From: Cyanidium caldarium | Taxonomy: Eukaryota; Rhodophyta; Bangiophyceae; Cyanidiales; Cyanidiaceae | Assembly: GCA_026184775.1 (NCBI GenBank) | Contig: JANCYW010000014.1 | Span: 276,893-340,892 of the forward strand | Direction: 5' to 3' | Length of the DNA: 64,000 bases | Part shown: one piece after another, positions 4,132 through 64,000 of the stretch | Position numbering within the stretch: position 1 is the first letter of the stretch | Layout of the letters: the number at the start of each line of letters is the position of its first letter | Made by a program: the position numbers and the translations under genes | The notes under the pieces: model-generated | The model's input: only the letters and a program-made list of their open reading frames with translations | The model's database searches: none | What the model was told of the DNA's origin: nothing

Positions 4132-5561
4132 GGGAGGAGTAGAGAAAAAGAGAAAACGACGGAAAAGAATGCAAGTGGACAGTGACGGAACGGGCCTAAA
4201 GTGAGCAATTTGAATCGAGAATCTAGGGACCTGCTCTCAACCTCTGTGCTCCCACACCTCCTCCAACTTTGAACTCCCCCGCGCACTCTAGTCGATGCGA
4301 TCCGAGCCAAGTTTGGAGAACAGGCAGGGCGCCCGACGCCTCGCTACTTCGCTCAGATGATGCCGCTGTGAAGCGGCACGAGCGCCCCCCTCTAGCGTCC
4401 GATTGCAAAACTTGCCCAAGTCGCGCGACAAGCCCCAACACTCGCCGCCGCAACGACAAACGACTCTCTTGACACTGCCATCCACTCAACCACCCTGCTC
4501 TCCGATCGCTGCCGACCCCATCACGCGCAGAACGTCGCCTCTCTCCAATGATTTCCCGCGTTTCGGTGGCGATTCCCGTGCTGGCGACATCCCGAATGCA
4601 ACCATCCGTGCACCCACATCAGACGACCCTCCTTGCGATACCTCGGGTGGGAATGCGGGCGCTGCAGCACCAGGTGACAACGACCGACACAGCATATGGA
4701 GTTGAGGGTGGTGGTGAGGTATTCGTTGATCAGATACGCCGCATAATGGTGTCGGTGGAACAGTCGACGTAGATCCTTGCCCGGCGTCGGTGTGCGACGC
4801 CGCAAGACCATACCTCGTCGCCGATAACTTGCACAGACGCTGTTGTAGCACCTTCCCGTCCACTTCCACCCCCAGATCTCAGAGTTGCGTCAGCGTCCCG
4901 GAGCTCAACGGTGACGCGCCCTCCTCCCGGGCACGCCTGGCCGGCAGCGAGACCGCGGCAGTACTGCCGGCTCGTGCAAGTATGTCTGTGAGTGTTGTGC
5001 AGTGCTGCTTGATGGGTAACGACGATAGACGCAGCGCGACGTGTCGACTCTGATGGGCGAACATCCCCTGAACAAGCAGCGGCCCTCCTACCGGTCAGCA
5101 CTCCAGTCGATGGAAAAATGAGATCGAGGATAGGCGAGCGCGGCGCCACGATAACTGAGTGGGCATCACGCGTGTTGATGGATGGATGAGTATATGGTCG
5201 GTTTATCGCATGTAGCGGGAGGTTTGGATGGTGGCGCATGCAATGGGAGCTGGTTGCCTTGGGCAATGCACTGATGTGGAGGCCGGGGGTGCGATCGCGC
5301 CGTCGTAAGAACGAGGGAAAAAATATCGATACGCATCAGGCACGATCCGAGATTCCCTTTTTGTGGGATTCTGAATTTTTGCCGTGACGAGTGGCGTATA
5401 TTGCGTGTCCTCCCCTTCTCATCCGATGCGCTACTTTATTCCTTGCTACCATACCTGCCCCGTGCAACTGCCTTGTCGTTCTCTATTCCCTCTTCCATCC
5501 ACGTGCGCCCTCTCATCCGCCTCCCACCTTGCTCACCTTCACTTCATTGCCCTCTCCCGCG
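4132..5561. other. Gene-poor 1.4-kb gap with a decayed transposon-like relic
   Basis: No intact gene is seen. The minus strand between about 4521 and 5065 carries fragments resembling the C-terminal half of a TnpB/Fanzor-type protein (separate entry). The part from 5070 to 5561 shows nothing coding. A hairpin near 5350 followed by AATTTTTG was noted and not taken as an snRNA. Confidence 0.5.
4521..5064 (-). pseudogene. Decayed TnpB/Fanzor-like (OrfB zinc-ribbon) relic, copy 1
   Basis: On the minus strand the frame starting at 4811 reads RRTPTPGKDLRRLF, then YAAYLINEYLTT, then a Cys-containing stretch (SICCVGRC), a basic SHPRYRK segment, WVHGWLHSGC, and finally NRHRNAGNHWREA. This order resembles the C-terminal RuvC and zinc-ribbon part of eukaryotic TnpB-like proteins: PTPxK, (L/I)(D)EYxTSxxC, HGLLxC, NRDxNAAxN. 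A second frame upstream (VIGDEVWSCGVAHRR) would join the first by a frameshift near 4800. The D of NRD is H, the D before EY is N, and there is no start or complete frame, so it is a relic. The assignment rests on motif order only. Confidence 0.4.
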
Positions 5562-6203
5562 ATGCGCTCGTCCCTCTTCGTCTCTCTCCTCATCTTCGCG
5601 CTGCTGCTGGCGGCGGGCAACACTGCGCGCGCCTGGTCCGACAATCAGAACTGCCAGGAGGTGAAGGTGTGCGTCAATCACACCAAGGTATGCTCCGAGT
5701 ACGCCAAGGTGTGTGTGGAGCCAGTGCAGATATGCAAACAGTACTCGCAGGTGTGCGTCAAGCAGGAGAAAAAGTGCATTGAACACAAAAACGTGACCGA
5801 GTACACCACCAAGTGCGTTCAATATGCGCAGGAGTGCGCTCAGTACGCCTACAAGACGGTGTGCAAGGAGGTGGATGCGCAGTCAAGTTCGCAGTACTGG
5901 GTGAACCGCTGGAATCAGAAGCAGGACTGCCAAAAGGTCCAATCGGGCTGCGCGGTCTACCAGGAGAACAAGAACAAGTGTGTGCAATATGAAAAGGTGG
6001 CCAAGACGGTGACCAAGTGCACCAAACATGCGTACGTCTGCAGTGAATACGCTCAGGGCAAGTGCCTGCAGTACACCGAGGGCTGCAAGCAATTCGGTGA
6101 GAAGTGTGCCAAGTCAAAGAAGGTCTGCAGTGCATACGCCAAGCAGCTGGTATGCTCCGGCGTCTCCCAGCAGCAACAGCAGGATTATGTCGTGAAAAAG
6201 TAG
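5562..6203 (+). CDS. Secreted cysteine-rich repeat protein, paralogue 3
   Basis: A 213-residue protein with a signal peptide (about residues 1-25, ending ARA) and the same plan as the two upstream paralogues: cysteines spaced six or seven residues apart, a YWVNRWNQK block matching WYRRWQQK, an NKNKC segment, and a QGKCLQY block near the C-terminus. It has drifted much more than the other two. Many Gln are replaced by Lys or Asn, and the start of the mature part is WSDNQNC. It ends in a Gln run. The function is unknown and presumably extracellular. The upstream frame is open but lacks signal-like features. Confidence 0.8.
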   Translation: MRSSLFVSLLIFALLLAAGNTARAWSDNQNCQEVKVCVNHTKVCSEYAKVCVEPVQICKQYSQVCVKQEKKCIEHKNVTEYTTKCVQYAQECAQYAYKTVCKEVDAQSSSQYWVNRWNQKQDCQKVQSGCAVYQENKNKCVQYEKVAKTVTKCTKHAYVCSEYAQGKCLQYTEGCKQFGEKCAKSKKVCSAYAKQLVCSGVSQQQQQDYVVKK

Positions 6204-13895: not shown

Positions 13896-14627
13896 CTACC
13901 CACACACGATTCCAGCGCCCTCGCAGGGCACGCTTTCGTACTCCAGAAAGCCGTAGTCCAGAAAGCCGTTTTTCATGGGCGCGCGCTCCGAGATGTTCTG
14001 CGGGTCGGCCGCCCGCCACGCCGCGTAGAACACGCCTGGACGCGCCACCGTGGCCAGCTGCTTCAGCGTCACCACATGCGCCGAGTACTTGATAATGCCT
14101 GGCGGGTTCAACTCGGCCGCGTACGAGAAATTGCGGTTCGGGTTGTCCGACGACACGAAGCGCGCCAGCGGCTTGGCGTAATAGGTAAAGTTGACGAACT
14201 CGCCGCTCTGCAGCAGCTCGGTCGCATTCATCACGTGCACCGTCGGCGGCGACGCCACCGGGTACACCGCCGCATAGTCCAGACCGGCGCTGAACAGAAG
14301 CTCCGTGTCCGCCCGAAAGTCGTTGGTCTGCGAGTGGTTGTCGATCTGGATCTCCACGCCGGAGAATATCACCCGCGCCGCGTGGGTGTAGTTGTACGTC
14401 GGCGGGTGCGCCGCCGGCGTCGGGTACGGGAACGGCGGCCGCCCCGAACCCACACTCTCCCCGATGCCCCCAGTGAACGACTCGTTGCTGGAGAGACGCA
14501 GCAGGTGATCGGCGGCCAGGCCCGTGTCCAAGCGCGCCGGCGTGCCCAGCACGGTAGGCAGAGCGTGGGCGGCGAAGAGGAGGGTGAAGAGGAACGCGGT
14601 GAGGATGGCGCGCACCGGGCGAGTCAT
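13896..14627 (-). CDS. Secreted glycoprotein, Pro-linker/VPCxxAGI family, member 1
   Basis: A 243-residue protein of unknown function. A signal peptide (about residues 1-25) is followed by a Pro/Gly segment and YNYTHAARVIFSG. A beta-rich body then carries several N-glycosylation sequons (NHS, NAT, NFT, NFS, NIS). The C-terminus is VPCEGAGIVCG with two cysteines. Members starting at 47118 and 48276 share the same plan: a PPxY(D/N)xNxT motif after the Pro segment, NATxLL, a YF/YY x KPLA or HPLA block, and VPCxxAGIxC at the end. It is likely at the cell surface. No known domain is recognised. Confidence 0.7.
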   Translation of the reverse strand: MTRPVRAILTAFLFTLLFAAHALPTVLGTPARLDTGLAADHLLRLSSNESFTGGIGESVGSGRPPFPYPTPAAHPPTYNYTHAARVIFSGVEIQIDNHSQTNDFRADTELLFSAGLDYAAVYPVASPPTVHVMNATELLQSGEFVNFTYYAKPLARFVSSDNPNRNFSYAAELNPPGIIKYSAHVVTLKQLATVARPGVFYAAWRAADPQNISERAPMKNGFLDYGFLEYESVPCEGAGIVCG

Positions 14628-14982
14628 GACTTGGAGATGTCGTTGATGGATGACTGATCCTCCTGGTCGCGGGTCTAGTTCACAGTGAGAACCAAGTACG
14701 GTTCCCAGACACACTCGGGTGAGAAACTCGGGTGCAGAAATAGACGCAGAAGAAATCAGCGCCTGGCAGCGGCGATTGGATCCGTGCGGGTTTTGTTCTT
14801 GACGAGAACGGCACGGCCGGCACCACGGAGACGAAAAACAGGCAGAGCGCCCTCTCTGAGCAGATCACACGAACGAGGGCCTCGTCGCGTGAGCGGCAAG
14901 CATTGCTTGTTGCACGTAGGGTTTTCTCTCTCTCCCTCACACACACACACACAGTCACTTTTCACCACCTTTTACTTTTCTT
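14628..14982. other. Intergenic region with CA microsatellite
   Basis: About 355 bases between the secreted glycoprotein start and the glycine decarboxylase stop. It contains a short CT then CA dinucleotide run near 14931-14953. No gene is seen. Confidence 0.5.
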
Positions 14983-46410: not shown

Positions 46411-47118
46411 CTAACAACTGATTCCTGCCCCGCTGCAGGGCACCCTGAGGATGCTCAGCACGCCAAACTCCAGCAGGCTGCTGGGAATGTCGGGCACGCG
46501 CGAGTCGTTGCGCGGGTCGTACACGTTGAAGCTGACGTACACCTCGCCGGGTGCTCCTGCCGGCTGCGGGTTGACCTGCTTGATCAGCACGGTGCCGGTG
46601 GTGAAGTTGACGTTGTGCTGGCTCGACTGGTACAGCGCGGTGATCGAAGAGTTGACGCCCGGCAAGTTGCCGGCGGTGTACATGGCCAGCGGGTGTTTGT
46701 AGTAGACAAAGTAGCTGAAGGAGAGGTTGGAGAGCAACGCGGTGGCATTCACCACCTTGAAATCGGTCACGTCATCGTCCGGGTACACGGTGGCCTTGTC
46801 GATGCCGGCACTGAAGGTGATCTCGCCGCCCACCCCAAAATCGTTCGCCTCTGCGTTGTTGCTGTTCTGCACGTCGGCGCCGGTGACCACCACCGTGGCC
46901 GTGCGGTTCTCGTCGTAGACGGGTGGGTGCGGCAGCAGCGGCGACGGCGGCAGGAAGTTGCCGTTGGCGGCCTGGTCGGCATACTGACGATCGGCGGCCG
47001 CCAGATCCCAGGCGCGCATCTCCACGATGGACGCGGTGGCCTGCATGCTGACAAGTAGCAGCGGGAGCGCCATGATCGCCGCCAAGAAGAGGGCGGTGTG
47101 GTGGCGGATGGAGGCCAT
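46411..47118 (-). CDS. Secreted glycoprotein, Pro-linker/VPCxxAGI family, member 2
   Basis: A 235-residue protein with a signal peptide (about residues 1-27, ending ATAS). After an acidic start comes a PPSPLLPHPPVYDENRTATVVVTGAD segment. The body has NATALLSNLSFSYFVYYKHPLAMYTAGNLPG and several sequons, and it ends VPCSGAGISC. Its neighbour at 47581-48276 is a tandem paralogue with a matching order: YDLNRTATVVIAGAD, NATELL, YFVYYGHPLAWYAAGNLPG, VPCTEAGITC. Function unknown; secreted surface protein inferred. Confidence 0.72.
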   Translation of the reverse strand: MASIRHHTALFLAAIMALPLLLVSMQATASIVEMRAWDLAAADRQYADQAANGNFLPPSPLLPHPPVYDENRTATVVVTGADVQNSNNAEANDFGVGGEITFSAGIDKATVYPDDDVTDFKVVNATALLSNLSFSYFVYYKHPLAMYTAGNLPGVNSSITALYQSSQHNVNFTTGTVLIKQVNPQPAGAPGEVYVSFNVYDPRNDSRVPDIPSSLLEFGVLSILRVPCSGAGISC

Positions 47119-47580
47119 CGCAGTGGGAGTGCGTGCTAGAGTCAATGCGGCAATGCGGTTCGGGCGTGCGAAGTGGCACCGACTTTTTTCTACCCACTTG
47201 CACAACGCCAAAGGAGAAAATCACGCGGGCACCCGTTTTCGTCGAGAATCGCGGCGAGGACCGCTAAAATTGGATCTGCGCGTGCCCGATGCGTGTCGGT
47301 TCTTTTTTCACGGCGGTGCTTCAATCTCGACGCGGAGCCAAAGCGAGCCATCGGCGCACGGGGGGAGTGAACGTTGCTGCGAGCACGGGCGGACAGCTGT
47401 GCTGGGGGGGTGGCGTGACGAAAGTGGGAAGTGCCGAAGCGTTAGGCAGGGGAGAAAACCACGGGAGAGCCCCGCGGACGCCCCTGCGCACGCACTGCGA
47501 TAGGCTCTCCAGGCGCCTCAACTGCATCCGCCGTTTATTCCCCAAAGTGCTACCGACGCCTTTCCACACCGACCTACCTT
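47119..47580. other. Spacer between tandem secreted paralogues
   Basis: About 460 bases with no recognised gene. It serves as the promoter of member 2 and the 3' flank of member 3. Confidence 0.5.
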
Positions 47581-48276
47581 TCAACACGTGATTCCCGCCT
47601 CTGTGCAAGGCACCTTGGTGAAGGTGACCACACCGTAGTCGTTCAGAGCGTTGGGCAGGTGCGGCGCCGCCGAGACGTTGTGCGGATCGTACGCGTTGAA
47701 TGCCACATTCACCACGCCCGGTGTGCCGGAGATGATGGTGTTCACCTGCGTGATCGCAAAGGTGCCGGCGATGAAGCGGGTTGAGTTGCCTGAGGGCACG
47801 TACTCCTGGGAGACCGTCGAACGGTTGCCTGGCAAGTTGCCCGCCGCGTACCATGCGAGCGGATGTCCGTAGTAGACAAAGTAGCGGAACTTGAGATCTT
47901 GCAGCAGCTCGGTGGCATTCAGCAGCCTGTAGGTGCCGGCATCGTCGTTGGGATACACCGCCGCATACTGCGCGCCGCCGCTGAAGGTGATCGCCGCGCC
48001 GTGGCCGAAAAAGTTGAACGCCGGAGGAAAGTCGCTGATGGCGTCGGCGCCGGCAATGACCACCGTAGCCGTCCGGTTCAAGTCATAGGTGGGCGGCGGC
48101 GATAGCGCTGGCGAGGGCGGTGGGTAGAACACGTCGATCGTTCCGCCGCTACTATTGCCGTGGCTGCCACCACTGCTGCTCTCGACGCGCACCGCAGGCA
48201 GCGCGGCTGCCGGCAGTGCGAGCAACGAGGCGAGCGCCACGCCGAGTACAACGAGAAACAGACGGCGAGTAAACAT
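47581..48276 (-). CDS. Secreted glycoprotein, Pro-linker/VPCxxAGI family, member 3
   Basis: A 231-residue protein. The signal peptide (RRLFLVVLGVALASLLALPAAALPA) starts at the Met at 48276; an earlier Met at 48294 is possible. A Ser/Gly-rich stretch, then FYPPPSPALSPPPTYDLNRTATV, then the shared body follow. There are two C-terminal cysteines in VPCTEAGITC. It is a direct tandem paralogue of the gene ending at 46411, with moderate divergence, so an older duplication. Likely extracellular; role unknown. Confidence 0.72.
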   Translation of the reverse strand: MFTRRLFLVVLGVALASLLALPAAALPAVRVESSSGGSHGNSSGGTIDVFYPPPSPALSPPPTYDLNRTATVVIAGADAISDFPPAFNFFGHGAAITFSGGAQYAAVYPNDDAGTYRLLNATELLQDLKFRYFVYYGHPLAWYAAGNLPGNRSTVSQEYVPSGNSTRFIAGTFAITQVNTIISGTPGVVNVAFNAYDPHNVSAAPHLPNALNDYGVVTFTKVPCTEAGITC

Positions 48277-49062
48277 GTCGCTGCTGGCCAACATGTGGTG
48301 GTCTTGTAATGAGCTTTGAGCAGTGCCAATCTCCTGAACAACACCAAGTGCCGGTGCTCGGGTCGAGTTCACACCCGCAACGCTCGCCTAGTTTGCTGCA
48401 CAGGGTGCGACATGCCTGGAAAAGGAAGGAAAACGGCTTGAGAGCCGAGCACGTGCCTGGCGTGCGCTCTGCGCGTGCCACCTGTCCCGAATCTAAATTG
48501 GGGGGCCGACGCGGGCGCAAACCTCAACACCCGGGCCACTGAAGGGGGCCAATGCGTTCCGGCCACGGGCAAGTGCCACGAAGAACAGAGCTAGTGCGTC
48601 CTAATTTGCACCTTTTCCAAATTAGGCTCCTGAACGCAAGGCCTCAAGCAGGCGCCACCCGTCGCTTGGACCACTCACAGGTTCGCGCGCCTGGCAGGTC
48701 GCGCTACCGCGCGCAGCCCCTCGTCGCCTCCTGCAGGTCACGTCATGCCGCCGAAGACGCCCAATCCTCCCACTGGACATTCCCGTCCATCACCGCGAGG
48801 CGATTGTGCGCCCCCGGTCGGCAGAACCATCCCACTCACTGCGTGTCCTTCGACTCCGTTCTCCCGTTCCGCGGTTCTGCGGCCGCGGCCGTGTTGTTCG
48901 CCTCGAAAATCTGCGGCGCGCGCGCACGCACGTCCCTTCCGTCCGGACACGCCAACGGGGGCGTCTGAGACGTACAGGAGGTCCACTCCTCCCCACAGAG
49001 TGTTGTCTCGGACGTATCGTCGTTTCGAGCTGGACGTACACCATTCCATCTCGCACTCCCCA
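48277..49062. other. Divergent intergenic region
   Basis: About 790 bases between a secreted protein gene and the C2-like gene. The frame of the C2-like gene is open back to 48745 without conserved content. No RNA gene seen. Confidence 0.5.
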
Positions 49063-56468: not shown

Positions 56469-59009
56469 CTAACGTATGGCCACACACTCTGTATCGTTGA
56501 CACACACCTCGTCGTCGGTGCAACAGCGCACCTTGTTCACAAAGTTGTCCGAAGGTATGGTGTAGGTGCCGCACTGCTTGGAGGGGTCCCGGCACACGCA
56601 GAACGAGGTCGCGGTGCCATAGGTGGATGATGATAACGCCGTGTTGCCGCTGGCTCCTGCGGTGTAGGCGCAGTTTTGGGTGGCGGTGTTACAGCACTCG
56701 GGACCGCACGGCACATACGTGGTAGAGTTGCTCGTTCCCGAACTGGTGCTGTCGGTGGCCGTCGTTGACCCCGCCGACTGACACACAAACTGCGGCACCT
56801 TCTGATAGCACTCGCCGCCGTAGCCCACGCAACAGCCCGCCTGCAGACACTGCTGCACCGTGGGTGTTGTCGAGGAAGATTGGTGCTGCGGGTGACAGGG
56901 CTGTCGCTCAAACTGCGGCACCGCACAGGTGTGCTCTGCCTGGTAACAGTACGGTGTGGCGCGGTATTCGGCGGCGTGTTGGCCGTTTTGCACCCAGGCG
57001 CTGTGGGTGGCGGCGTCGTAGCAGCATCCCTGGGAGAGGCAGGTGAAGCGGTTGATGCCCGGCTGGCCGCACGGCTGGCGGGTGGAAGAGGTGTCCGAAG
57101 AGGAACACAGGGGCACCGGGGCCTGCACTTCGAGAGCGGCGGCCGACGCTTGCGGAGCCTGTTCGGCGTCGTAGAAGCACCACGGGGCGATGACGTCGTT
57201 GGGTGTCGGTTGCCAGCAGCATCCGGGGATGGCGCGGCACTCGTCGGGGTAGATGTATGCCCAGCCGCAGGCGATGCGGGAGTGCACCGACACCAGCGCG
57301 CATTGTTGGGAGACGCTGCGCAGGGTGCATTGTTGGGTGTTGGTGTTGAAGCAGCAGCCGACCTGTTCGCACTGTTGGGCGTTGGTGTATTGGTTGGGGC
57401 TGCCGCAGGTGGTGTTGGTGCAGAGCGGTGTGGGGGTGGGGGAGATGGTGGTGGTGGCGGTGGCAGTCGCGGTTGCAGTCGGTGTCGGTGTGGCTGTTGT
57501 GGTTGCGGTGGCCGTCGCGGTTGCAGTCGCGGTTGCGGTCGGCGTCGGTGTGGGCGTGGCGGTGACCTCGGCCAGGAGAAAGAGGTCGTTCAAAAGACCG
57601 AATGCGTCATTCACGTCGTATCCGACGCCACCAAACAAGTACGGGTCGCCACTGGCAGTCGTCCATGACACAGCTACATAGCGAGCGCCCGGCACGGTGG
57701 TCGCATTGAATACGCCCTTCTGGTTGTAGATGCCTGGCTGGTTGGTCGCATTGCTCCCACTCAGCCATGCCCACAGCCCGGTGGCCACGTCATACGACCA
57801 AAAGTCGTTCCTAAGGTTCCCGCCAGAGTTGGAACCGCCGAACAGCTGCAGCTCACCGGTTGGCCCGTCGAACGGCACCGCATATTTGCGAGCTCCTGGA
57901 TATGCGCTGGCGCTCTGCATGCCCTTGTCGGCGTAGACACCCGGAGCGTCGCCAGTGTCATTGCCCGCGATCCACGTCCATATGGTGGACGTGTAATCAT
58001 ACACCCACAAGTCGTTGAAGGGAGCGGTGGGAGTCGTTCCACCAAAGAGGTACAACTTGTCAGTAGGGCGCGTCCACGACACCGCGCCGAAGCGACTCGG
58101 CGGCAGCGTCGACGCGTTGCCGACGCCCAGTGTGCCGTAGAATCCCGGGTCGTTCGTCGCGTTGGACCCAGAGAGCCACACAAACTCGAATGACGTGAGG
58201 TCCAACTGCCACAAGTCGTTGAAGACGGCGCCGTCGGCATTCTCTCCTCCAAACAGCAGCAACCGGTCACCACTCAGCGTCCACGGCGATGCCAACGAAC
58301 GTGCGCCAGGGTAGTTGTTCCTGCTGGGCACGCCCTTGGTGCCGTACACTCCAGCCGCATTGATGGTCGTCTTGCCAGCGATCCACACCCACTCGTTCGT
58401 CTGCGTGTCGAAAAGCCACCAATCATTGAGGTCGCCAAAATCGCCGTTTGTATCGTACCCAAAGCCACCAAAGAGCACCAACGACCCGTTCGAGGTGACC
58501 CAACTCGCGGCAGAGCCGCGACTGCCTGGCGCGTTCGACGGGCTGGGCACGTACAGCGTGCCGTATTCGCCGGCAACGTCAGTGCTCGTGTCGCTCCCGC
58601 TCACCCACTTCCATTGTCCCAGCTGCGGAGAGTATGCCCACAGGTCGTTGAGATAGCCTTCGTTGCTAGCAGAGAGATAACCGAACCCGCCAAACAGCCA
58701 CAAAAAACCGTCCAGGCCCGTCCATGAAGTCGCTCCGAAACGCGCGCCCGGCATGTTACTGGCAGCAGACACGTTCTTCGTGCCATACACACCTCCAACG
58801 TTGATCGTGTCGTTGCCACTCACCCACGTCCACTCGATCGTCGGCACACCCGCTGACACTCCCGTCGCTGCCCGCTCCACCCGCCTGCGCCCCGCCCCAC
58901 CCCACTCCAACGCCGGCCCGCGTCCCAACACCTGACACACCACCCCGCCCACCACACACGCCGCCACCAGCACCCCCAACAGCACGGCGTGCAGTCTCGA
59001 CGAAGCCAT
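56469..59009 (-). CDS. Secreted kelch-repeat plus trefoil-domain protein
   Basis: An 846-residue protein. A signal peptide (about residues 1-26: LHAVLLGVLVAACVVGGVVC) is followed by kelch-type repeats to about residue 490, each with W-x-W-(V/I/L)-(S/A)-G-x-x-x-x-N, YGTxGV, PGAR, LLFGG and NDLW. A Thr/Ala/Pro linker (TATPTPTPTATA type) leads to a Cys-rich half with P-type trefoil-like modules (CGSPNQYTNAQQCEQVGCCF; CRAIPGCCW; CGQPGINRFTCLSQGCCY) and a Ser/Thr-rich region. Kelch propellers bind ligands; trefoils are secreted Cys-rich modules. It is likely an extracellular matrix or mating-type surface protein. It is the last intact gene before the telomere. Confidence 0.85.
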   Translation of the reverse strand: MASSRLHAVLLGVLVAACVVGGVVCQVLGRGPALEWGGAGRRRVERAATGVSAGVPTIEWTWVSGNDTINVGGVYGTKNVSAASNMPGARFGATSWTGLDGFLWLFGGFGYLSASNEGYLNDLWAYSPQLGQWKWVSGSDTSTDVAGEYGTLYVPSPSNAPGSRGSAASWVTSNGSLVLFGGFGYDTNGDFGDLNDWWLFDTQTNEWVWIAGKTTINAAGVYGTKGVPSRNNYPGARSLASPWTLSGDRLLLFGGENADGAVFNDLWQLDLTSFEFVWLSGSNATNDPGFYGTLGVGNASTLPPSRFGAVSWTRPTDKLYLFGGTTPTAPFNDLWVYDYTSTIWTWIAGNDTGDAPGVYADKGMQSASAYPGARKYAVPFDGPTGELQLFGGSNSGGNLRNDFWSYDVATGLWAWLSGSNATNQPGIYNQKGVFNATTVPGARYVAVSWTTASGDPYLFGGVGYDVNDAFGLLNDLFLLAEVTATPTPTPTATATATATATATTTATPTPTATATATATTTISPTPTPLCTNTTCGSPNQYTNAQQCEQVGCCFNTNTQQCTLRSVSQQCALVSVHSRIACGWAYIYPDECRAIPGCCWQPTPNDVIAPWCFYDAEQAPQASAAALEVQAPVPLCSSSDTSSTRQPCGQPGINRFTCLSQGCCYDAATHSAWVQNGQHAAEYRATPYCYQAEHTCAVPQFERQPCHPQHQSSSTTPTVQQCLQAGCCVGYGGECYQKVPQFVCQSAGSTTATDSTSSGTSNSTTYVPCGPECCNTATQNCAYTAGASGNTALSSSTYGTATSFCVCRDPSKQCGTYTIPSDNFVNKVRCCTDDEVCVNDTECVAIR
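57428..57572 (-). repeat. Minisatellite coding the Thr/Ala/Pro linker
   Basis: Repeats of GCGGTTGCAGTC/GCCGTC-type six- and twelve-base units on the plus strand encode TATATA and TPTPTP on the minus strand. They separate the kelch half from the trefoil half of the same gene. Confidence 0.8.
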
Positions 59010-59429
59010 ACGCAACTCTAGCACTCACCAGCACACCTGGAACGAGAAAGATGACTCTACTTGGAATGATTCTTGGAGTAGTGGTCACGCAAACGCCCGC
59101 GCACAACTCCAAAGCACGTGCGGGGCCGTTCCGCGTCGTCCATGTGTTTTGAATTGCCCGCGATCGCCACCGAGCCACCGAGCCGTCCTCTGGAAGGGAA
59201 AAATGGCGCGCGCATTTTGGCGCCAGATTTGATCGGGCATCGGCGCGCACGGTTTTGCGGAGTGGACGGGAAAGGGCGTGCGTGCGGCATGGAGGATGGG
59301 GGTGGCGTGGTCTGCGGCACCTGTTCGGCATCTGTTGGGGAATGGTGACAGTAGTGGGTGGGTGTCGGGAGTGTCACCAGTCGTCGGTGGAGGGCGATGG
59401 GGAGTGGGTATGGAGGGAGGCAGGTGGTG

Positions 59430-60290
59430 GCGTTGCCCCACACCTTGGGTGGCAGCGGTGTGCCCGTGCGATCGAGCAGCGGACATCGCCCACAGCAGTC
59501 ATCATGGACGACGCGCTTCTTGATACTGGCGCGTTCAATGACCGACTTGAGCCGGTGGTGTGCGCTGTCGGTGCCGACGAGGCCAGAGTGCCCTGCAGAC
59601 CGAGTGGCGCAGCCGGTCGCCCAGCAGCGTGCTCGACACACGCGCACAGGGCGCTGTCGCCGAGACCGCTCTGGCGTGGGGACCGTCTGTTCGGGCGCTG
59701 GTGGCACCCGGTGATGATGAGGATGACCATCGAGTGTTCGGCTCCATGCGATATTGAATGTAAACGTGTGCGGCATCGGGTGGGTACCGACGGTCACTGG
59801 GAGCGTCGATGCGGATCCCAGCAGACCCAGAGTGTCCGGCCATGCCGAGTGGTCAACGCCACCGGCATCCGGTGGAGCGCGGCACTCACCTCGCGGTGGA
59901 GCATCCGACCACCCGATCGGACACTGACCCGGCACCCATCGCCACATCGGGTGCACCGATCGATGGTGGTCGCGGCACTGTCCAGCGGTATGCGTGTGAG
60001 GGCGTGGCCGTCGGCGCGGTGTGTGGTGCCGCGAACAGGCAGTGGTGGCCACATCGACTGGGCCAGCAGCGGCGCCTCCGCACACACACACACCACCCTC
60101 CCGGCACACCCCAGCAGGCCCGGTGGAAGACCTGTCTCCTGGTGCCCGGTGCACTGGTGACTCCGGGCAGTGGCGCCCACATCCCCTCTGCAATGGGCCC
60201 GGCGATGATGCCGGTGTTGGGGTGGTGGTGGTGGAGGAGGTGCGCTCATCGCCGGGCACCAGCCATGTCGCCTGCCAGAATGGCGGTTCG
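59430..60290 (-). pseudogene. Decayed P1B metal-ATPase relic (actuator to phosphorylation site)
   Basis: In one minus-strand frame the order is CPESPVHRAPGDRSSTG (near 60110-60170; resembles the TGExxPVxKxxGDxVxxGT actuator loop), then a stretch with Cys near 59600-59650, then VIERASIKKRVVHDDCCGRCPLLDRTGTPLPPKVWG (near 59438-59530). LLDRTGT is close to the phosphorylation motif (F/L)DKTGT, preceded by VIExxASIK as in metal pumps. Lys to Arg in DKTGT, missing membrane segments and no start codon mark it as a relic. By eye only. Confidence 0.3.
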
Positions 60291-60426
60291 TGTCGGTGAG
60301 CGGATGGTGGGCACCCCGGGCGCACTGCATCGAGTGTCCACCGGTCACGGTGACCGCTCGCTTGACGCTGCACCGTCGCCGTCCCCACTGGAGCCTACGC
60401 CGCCCAGGTGACCGCGACCACGCCCC

Positions 60427-61290
60427 TCACAGCCGCCCGTCTCCCGCACTGATCGAGAACGACTCCCGCAATCGAATGGCATTGACAACCACCAACGAGG
60501 CGCATTGCACGGCGAGCCCAGTCAATGCCCACATCAGCGCCAGCACGGTGCCAGGGTATTGCACATGGTCGTGGAGACGGAGGCCAACGGCTGAGGGTGT
60601 GTGTATGTGTGCATGGGCGCGCACACACGCTCTCGCCTATCGGCACCCAGAGCGATCTCTGATGAGCGGTGGGGAGCACCCACCGGGCAAGCACATAGGC
60701 ACACCGCGCCGTGTCACGGAGAGGTGGCTGCTCCCAGACTGGGGGGCAGCGCCCACATCCACCCGACGACTGTGGTGAGAGGAAGGGAGTCGGGAGTGGT
60801 GCGTGATGTGTGTGTGTTCGTGTGTGCGAGGTGGTGGTTGTGGTCATCATCACCATCGGTGTCGTCGTCATCACTATGGTCGTCGATCTTCGGGTGCGCC
60901 CTCTCAGGGACACCGGGCGCACCGGGTGGCGGTCGGAGACATCTGTTGTCGCCGCGCAGTTGGCCCCGAAGCAGGTCCGTGCATCGGCCAGTGCAGGCGT
61001 TGCCGGTGGCGCATGCACTGTCTCACCTCCGCGAATGTCCACAGCTGGTGGCGGTTCTAGTCATTCAACGGCAGGCGCGTTGTCGACAAACACACCTGAC
61101 GCTGTCGACGAGGAGATGGCGCGCCGCCGGCGCGCCAGAGTATTGTCGGGGTGCCTGCACGCTTGGCCGGCGCATTGTGTCATGGTGGATGCGATGCCGG
61201 CGTCACTGGCAGTGCTGGTCACTGAGATGTTGGTGATGGTGGGTGAAGAATGGAGCTGGTGTATGTGCGAGGTAGTGATGGGAGTGTTGG
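60427..61290 (-). pseudogene. Decayed P1B metal-ATPase relic (hinge to C-terminus)
   Basis: The minus strand shows, in the order expected for a P1B ATPase C-terminal half: VTSTASDAGIASTM near 61175-61231 (like the GDNxxTAxxIAxxxGI segment), then PALADARTCFGANCAATTDVSD near 60930-60990 (like GDGINDxPALAxADVGIAxG), then PGTVLALMWALTGLAVQC, ASLVVVNAIRLRESF near 60470-60560 (like the last membrane segment ending SxxVVxNALRLR). The frame is not continuous and the GDGIND core is degraded. By motif order only. Confidence 0.32.
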
Positions 61291-61481
61291 GTGAGAGAGA
61301 GGCATGTGGCGTATGAGGTGCAGTATTGGGCGACGAATGGATCATTGTGGTATTGCGCATTGGGTGTGTGTGTGTGTGTCGGGGCAGACGGTTACGCGGC
61401 CGGATGGTGTTAGGGATGCGGGATGGCGGATTTCGGGTTTTCGCGCTGTGGGATGGTTGATGGTTGAGAGAGGGCAACGCC

Positions 61482-61607
61482 GATTGAAGGCGATTGCCGA
61501 TCGCCGATCGAAGACAATCGCCGATTACGGATTACTGATTGAAGGCGATTGCCGATCACTGATTGCCGATCGAGGACAATCGCCGATTACGGATTAGTGA
61601 TTGAAGG

Positions 61608-61639
<32 letters not shown>

Positions 61640-61800
61640 CGAGGAAAATCGCCGATTACGGATTACTGATTGAAGGCGATTACCGATTGCCGATTGCCGA
61701 TTGCCGATCGAAGACAATCGCCGATTACGGAATAGTGATTGAAGGCGATTGCCGATTGCCGATCGAGGAAAATCGCCGATTACGGATTACTGATTGAAGG

Positions 61801-61832
<32 letters not shown>

Positions 61833-61838
61833 CGATCG
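61482..61838. repeat. Higher-order repeat built on a GCCGATT heptamer
   Basis: Units begin GATTGAAGGCGATT at 61482, 61537, 61599, 61668, 61737 and 61792. Spacings are 55, 62, 69, 69 and 55 bases, all differing by multiples of seven. Each unit has a constant part (about 48 bases, including AATCGCCGATTACGG) and one to four copies of a heptamer of type GCCGATT. GGCGATTG and CAATCGCC in each unit are inverted repeats that could form hairpins. Confidence 0.92.
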
Positions 61839-62099
61839 TGCGCGGGCGGGGAATGGTAAGAGTGTCGTGCGGCGCCATTGGGCAGTGCGTGGGGGGCAGT
61901 GGTGTCGAGTGAGAGAGCGTGTGTGTGTGTGTGCGCGTGAGTATACGTATGGAGTGTTTGGGTGAGTGGGGGAGGTGGTGTTGTGTTTCGAGTGTGTTAC
62001 GTGCTGGCGTAAGGGCGTGCAGTGGGCACGCGGTGGGCGGTGGGCGTTGGCGCGGCGCTGGCGTATGAGGGCTTGGGCTGACCGACGACGATGGGCGGT

Positions 62100-62169
62100 G
62101 GTGGTGGTGGGAGAGGGGTCATGAGGGTGCGGGAGCGTTGGTTGTTGGGTGTGGAGTGTGTTGGGAGTG
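62100..62169. repeat. 70-bp direct repeat, copy 1
   Basis: Matches bases 62295-62364 at 67 of 70 positions by my alignment. G/T-rich, containing GGGAGAGGGGTCATG and GGGAGCGTTGGTTG. Confidence 0.85.
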
Positions 62170-62294
62170 TTTGGAGTGTTCATGAGTGTGTGTTGGGTGT
62201 TGGGGTCGGTTTGGGGCGGGAACGGCCAGCGGGTCGGTTGGGAGCTGGGAGCTGGGGGAGTGTTGGCGGGTGAGCGCCTGATGGGTTGATGATC

Positions 62295-62364
62295 GGTGGT
62301 GGTGGGAGAGGGGTCATGGGCGTGCGGGAGCGTTGGTTGGTGGGTGTGGAGTGTGTTGGGAGTG
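62295..62364. repeat. 70-bp direct repeat, copy 2
   Basis: Second copy, 195 bases from the first. Three substitutions, no indels. Confidence 0.85.
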
Positions 62365-63734
62365 CGTTGGGGTGGTTGGAAGCGGAAGCGGGGAGCGGTG
62401 GCTGCGCGTGCGTCTGGGAGTGTAAAAGAACGCTGAGAGCTCTGGATCGATGGAAGGAATGAAGGAATGAGCGATTGATGGGGTGAGCGTGTGGGATGGG
62501 CGTTGCGCAGCGCTGCGCAGCGTCGGGAGGCGTGTGTGTGTGTGTGAGTGTTGTGATGGTGGTGGTTGGCTACAGGGGAACGAGCGGGGCAGGTGAAGTG
62601 AGATGGGTGAGTATGGGTGAGTATGGGTGTGTGTGGGATGGGGTGTTGATGGATGTGGAGATGTAGGTGAATGATTGTTGAGGGTTGGTGGTGGGTTGGA
62701 GTGAGATGAATGGAGGTGTTGGTGTTGGTGGATGTGGGAGTGTTGGTGGAGTGAAGTTGGAGGGCGGCTGTGAGTGTGTGTGCGCTTGTGTAAGTGAGTG
62801 TATGCGTTTGGGAGTGAGTGGCTGGTTGTGGTGGGTGGATGCGTGTGTGAGTGGGATGAGCGTGTGTTGCCTGAGTGGGTGTTACTGGGGTGGTTGGATG
62901 GTGTGTGTGTGTGTGCGCCGGACGGTGGGACGGTGGGACGGTGGCGGGAGGTGGGAAAAGCGTTTCGGTGTGTTGGCGGGTGCGAGAGGAGTCGGTGTTG
63001 ATGCGGCTGGTTGTAGACGAGGGGAGTGCCGAGTGTATGGAAGCGTATGGAGTGGAGTGGAAGTGTATGGAATGGGGTCGCCTTGTGTGTGGATGCGCAC
63101 AGATCGGTGACGGTTATGGGAGCGGCGGCGCATTGTGGGTGCGCGCGCGCCGATCGGCGGCGGCGCGCAGGTGAGGGGCGCGTTGATTGTGTCGATCGAG
63201 AACAGTAGACAAGAAGCGGCGATCGCGGCGATGGCGCGGAGTGGTGGATGCGGTGTGGGCGCCACCTGGTGGGAAAGCGTCGGTGGTAGTGGGAGAGAGC
63301 GATGGTGGTGGTGGGCAGCGCGGCGGCGGTTCCGGTGTCTATGTGGGTAGTGTTGTTGCTGCTGCAGGGTGTATGTAACGAGTCCCGGAACGGCGACGAT
63401 GATGAAGCGTGTGGAAGGTGTATGTGTGGGAGCGGGTGTTGTGGACGGGAGTGTGTGTGTGTGTGGGAGTGGCGTGACCTGAATGGAATGGATGTTGTGT
63501 GGCATGGCAAGCCGCAATTGCGTTTTTTGTGGTTGCGTATCGCCGATCGGCGCCGTGCCCTGCCCGGGAGTGGAGCGTGTGTGTTTTGTTGGAGCGGTGG
63601 GGAACGGGCATGGGGAGTGGGGCAGCGCATGTCGGGAATGTGTTTTCGTTATTTGTTTTTTATTGGGGATCGACGTGTGCGCGCGCGATCGTGCGCACGG
63701 GAGAGCGTTTGGGGCGGATTGGGAGTGGTGTCGC

Positions 63735-63860
63735 GTGTGAGTTGGGTGAGATCGGGCGACCGGGTGTGAGTTGGGGGGGATCGGGCGACCGGGTGTGAGT
63801 TGGGCGGGATCGGGCGAGCGGGTGTGAGTTGGGTGGGATCGGGCGAATGGGTGTGAATTA
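63735..63860. repeat. 29-bp tandem array next to the telomere
   Basis: Four full units of 29 bases starting GTGTGAGTTGG at 63735, 63764, 63793 and 63822, plus a partial fifth at 63851. Units have the form GTGTGAGTTGGGnGnGATCGGGCGAnCGG. The fifth unit degenerates (GTGTGAATTA) directly into the telomere. In this array AAT-like and G-run pieces already appear, so it may have arisen from telomere-like DNA. Confidence 0.92.
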
Positions 63861-64000
63861 GGGGGGAATGGGGGGGAATGGGGGGGAATGGGGGGGAATG
63901 GGGGGGAATGGGGGGGAATGGGGGGGAATGGGGGGGAATGGGGGGGAATGGGGGGGAATGGGGGGGAATGGGGGGGAATGGGGGGGAATGGGGGGGAGGG
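63861..64000 (+). repeat. Telomere, (AATGGGGGGG)n
   Basis: Thirteen perfect 10-base units (GGGGGGAATG in this register), then one variant unit with AGGG. The G-rich strand runs toward the window end, as at a right chromosome end. Each repeat has seven consecutive G. I recall nine-base AATGGGGGG units in C. merolae, so this differs by one G. Confidence 0.95.

Follow-up and report, generated by a model that had tools for sequence, protein, structure and literature searches.

The right-hand edge of the 64,000-nucleotide stretch of DNA analysed here (the window) runs out in a tandem repeat of a G-rich ten-base unit, and it raises two questions: whether this edge is a chromosome end, and whether the unit, one G longer than that of Cyanidioschyzon merolae, is genuine. 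Our analysis indicates, with high confidence, that this edge is the right-hand end of a chromosome from the nuclear genome of the hot-spring red alga Cyanidium caldarium, or of a very close relative, and that this end closes in the published telomere repeat AATGGGGGGG.

A script count of the array reveals perfect, uninterrupted copies of the unit, with the G strand directed toward the window's end (coordinates in the table below). The G run is exactly seven bases long in 13 of 13 units, and six Gs are present in none of them (0 of 13); that is, the C. merolae unit AATGGGGGG is not matched in the array. The initial annotation had read thirteen uninterrupted AAT+G7 units, which our count confirms, but it had placed the array at positions 63861–64000, a span that holds for the array itself and fails at both edges. 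Specifically, position 63861 opens a run of six Gs (63861–63866) that is part of the junction and lies outside any full unit, and the terminal AGGG, where the unit would continue as AATG, has two mismatches, at 63998 and 63999. The terminal AGGG may be the end of the assembly or a variant unit.

TRF reports the array at 63841–63997, with a period of 10, 15.6 copies, and 94% matches. A pattern of two consecutive units has 12 matches, all inside the array and on the + strand only, as compared with 0 in 100 dinucleotide shuffles. A script search of both strands of the window gave no AATG5 or longer outside the array, and a three-unit pattern matched 0 stretches in either a viral-contig or a genome-contig collection, a result that bears on those collections only. 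At 130 bp, the array is shorter than the telomere arrays of C. merolae, which span 400–700 bp by restriction-fragment analysis (PMC1955436). A cut or collapsed assembly end may account for this difference in length, and the short array and the off-unit AGGG together may be the mark of such an end.

Table. Coordinates of the features identified toward the right-hand end of the window
Feature	Coordinates	Strand	Description
Kelch+Trefoil (K+T) subtelomeric gene	56469..59024	-	851 codons in one open frame; kelch and trefoil family matches; ~5 kb from the end
Strand-asymmetric zone (~2.6 kb)	61251..63866	+	43.2 GGG runs/kb vs 1.1 CCC runs/kb
Subtelomeric tandem repeat, 29-bp unit	63735..63867	+	TRF, 4.6 copies; consensus GTGTGAGTTGGGGGGGATCGGGCGACCGG; runs directly into the telomere
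Junction AATTAGGGGGG	63856..63866	+	AATTA, then G6; links the 29-bp repeat to the first complete unit
Telomere array	63867..63996	+	13 perfect AATGGGGGGG units of 10 bp; script, TRF, and shuffles
Terminal AGGG	63997..64000	+	Off-unit four bases at the window edge, after the last unit

The unit of the array is in print as the telomere of C. caldarium. In particular, strains 063 E5 and NIES-551 Ha5 both have AATGGGGGGG as their telomere in Table 1 of PMC13353863, and the C. caldarium assemblies in that table come from two studies (PMC13353863, PMC9812998). Compared by way of the tabulated unit, the repeat in the window is identical, with a G run of seven and a length of ten bases, and no difference is seen. 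The published assignment bears out the reading of the array as a telomere of the cyanidiophycean type; it also means that the ten-base unit, put forward as a new finding in the initial annotation, had already appeared for C. caldarium (PMC13353863, 2026). The unit is therefore already known and is ordinary save for its unusually long G runs.

The same table gives AATGGGGGG for two strains of Cyanidiococcus and for C. merolae 10D, so that the comparison among cyanidiophyceans proposed in the initial annotation yields G7 in C. caldarium and G6 in Cyanidiococcus and Cyanidioschyzon (PMC13353863). With the G7 and G6 repeats both published, the array is useful chiefly as a pointer to where the window comes from. 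The telomere of C. merolae 10D and Cyanidiococcus yangmingshanensis resembles the unit in the window in having AAT and then a single long run of Gs and differs from it in having one G fewer, for a total of nine bases. For C. merolae, the nine-base AAT+G6 unit, which the annotation had also named, is stated in PMC1955436 for all chromosome ends, the longest array sequenced there comprising 2.5 repeats. Galdieria partita, from the same class of red algae, has another sequence, CCCTAA(A)TAAA (Table 1, PMC13353863), with a run of three Gs on the G strand; because this repeat has only three Gs, the polarity of the change, from G6 to G7 or the reverse, is not readable from the comparison. Telomeres were identified in the three genomes of PMC9812998 and are described there as highly diverse relative to probable ancestral repeats.

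The array is preceded by a subtelomeric tandem repeat that leads into it. The second copy of the 29-bp unit contains TTGGGGGGGAT, which resembles the telomere unit, and the last partial copy reads GTGTGAATTAGGGGGGAATGG, merging into the telomere. The ~2.6-kb zone before the array is G/T-rich on the strand that ends as the telomere's G strand, with TGTG at 22.6 per kb and CACA at 0.4 per kb. The corresponding values in positions 1–56000 are 12.7 (GGG), 13.6 (CCC), 3.7 (TGTG), and 3.6 (CACA) per kb, and those in positions 59001–61250 are 19.6, 16.4, 6.2, and 9.8 per kb; because this latter segment is without such asymmetry, the strong bias starts only near 61.25 kb. From 61251 onward, GC skew calculated per 250 bases is 0.43–0.84 in 10 of 11 steps and 0.13 in the remaining one, 61501–61750; the final step takes in the telomere. 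A separate tandem array at 61497–61825 comprises 5.2 copies with a period of 69 bp and is composed of short words, CGATTGC and CGATTAC among them.

The asymmetry of the zone could reflect a replication-linked bias or decayed telomere-like repeats. A more far-reaching reading, which we consider unlikely, is that the entire G/T-rich zone forms an extended, quadruplex-capable end structure, being in part a degenerate telomerase product or a repeat seeded from it, and would make the protective end much longer than the array of ten-base units.

The genes and base composition of the window fit the assignment to C. caldarium in several respects. The K+T gene near the chromosome end in the window resembles those of Cyanidium subtelomeres, for which PMC9812998 describes Kelch+Trefoil genes and states that kelch-hint fusions were not identified. 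The GC content of the window, 64.3%, is close to the 65.7% published for C. caldarium, as compared with 54.6% for Cyanidiococcus, 55.0% for Cyanidioschyzon, and 37.6% for Galdieria partita (Table 1, PMC13353863). Nine of the 68 listed open reading frames were scanned against Pfam; seven of the nine have matches within a single open frame, and two are without a match. These single-frame matches, from 9 of 68 frames, fit an intron-poor genome; intron poverty is not distinctive of Cyanidium, because its sister genera are intron-poor too (44–46 introns per genome in C. caldarium and 34–36 in the sister genera; PMC13353863).

Several other frames drew attention by eye. The frames at 46411–47211 and 47581–48372 (- strand), which gave no Pfam match when scanned, look alike, and seem to resemble the frame at 13896–14714 on the same strand, the words AAVYP or ATVYP and YYxxPLA being common to all three. 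On the + strand, the frames at 95–1030 and 5391–6203 are rich in Cys, Gln, and Tyr and have a hydrophobic stretch ahead of repeats, with VIPKKQ-type repeats near the end of one of them; by eye, both resemble secreted proteins of the wall or matrix.

Three other explanations of the array have to be weighed. Long reads are prone to error in runs of G, and the true unit could be AATGGGGGG, as in C. merolae, with the seventh G introduced systematically by homopolymer error in one assembly; the run of six Gs in the junction ahead of the array would agree with such an error. The uniformity of the array, with every run at exactly seven, speaks against it, as do the PacBio reads and Pilon correction described in the methods of both studies (PMC13353863, PMC9812998). 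The published units weigh further against it: the two studies behind the Cyanidium strains, both given as AATGGGGGGG, also supplied the Cyanidiococcus strains, which are given as AATGGGGGG, and a platform error would hardly be so selective. A homopolymer error would need to have inserted one G in each Cyanidium strain while sparing those Cyanidiococcus strains, and we regard it as highly improbable. The initial annotation had also rejected slippage of a nine-base unit, by appeal to the perfect periodicity of the array. That conclusion stands on other grounds: periodicity alone carries little weight, given the Pilon correction reported in the methods of both studies, and an assembly slip is an unlikely source of the ten-base unit because this unit is given for two C. 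caldarium strains, with genomes from two studies.

The array might instead be an interstitial, telomere-like tract within a chromosome, at which the window merely stops. The size of the window is fixed, position 64000 being its set limit, the last four bases are off-unit, and the end of the record lies out of view, all of which would be compatible with an interstitial tract. The position of the array at the window edge and the outward direction of its G strand are as in a chromosome end, and the 29-bp subtelomeric repeat, the asymmetric zone, and the K+T gene constitute chromosome-end surroundings. We accordingly give an interstitial origin only a very small probability. The chromosome end could also belong to another cyanidiophycean sharing the G7 unit, for example one of the sister genus Cyanidiofrigus, which PMC13353863 names. 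The GC content, the type of subtelomeric gene, and the unit all agree with the published C. caldarium assemblies, and we consider such a source unlikely. On these indirect features, we take the array to be the telomere of a chromosome that is probably from C. caldarium.

Telomerase adds its unit to the 3′ end of the G strand by copying an RNA template. At the C. caldarium chromosome end, the telomerase RNA template would hold CCCCCCCATT plus an alignment part, to be copied onto the G-strand 3′ end. A template with one C more than in the C. merolae candidates would yield a uniform ten-base unit instead of a nine-base unit; in C. merolae, a putative TERT gene that is transcribed is reported, together with two candidates for the telomerase RNA, CMM123T and CMP131T, whose sequences contain UUCCCCCCAUU and CCAUUCCCCCCAUU (PMC1955436). 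The array in the window probably began on the 29-bp subtelomeric repeat, in which the second copy carries the near-telomeric TTGGGGGGGAT.

The window itself was searched for such a template. Outside the array, neither strand of the window matches any circular permutation of the unit over 11 bases or longer. Shorter template-like matches before position 63840 comprise one of 10 bases and seven of 9 bases on the + strand and none on the - strand. Rfam at gathering scores gave 0 matches in the window, and a tRNA search gave 0 in the window with the bacterial code, a setting that could overlook eukaryotic tRNA genes with introns.

The long G runs of the array are also of interest for quadruplex work. 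ViennaRNA quadruplex energies for four tracts are -84.6 kcal/mol for G7, -66.6 kcal/mol for G6, and -12.6 kcal/mol for UUAGGG; these energies derive from RNA parameters, are uninformative for DNA in the cell, and were set aside as evidence on quadruplexes. The methods of PMC9812998 include circular dichroism of cyanidiophycean telomeric oligonucleotides, with quadruplex-forming repeats for comparison, so the question whether these algal telomere repeats form quadruplexes is already under study. With respect to telomerase, we infer that the RNA template differs between Cyanidium and C. merolae; G7 as opposed to G6 in related genera would offer a neat natural example of what is probably a change in the telomerase template.
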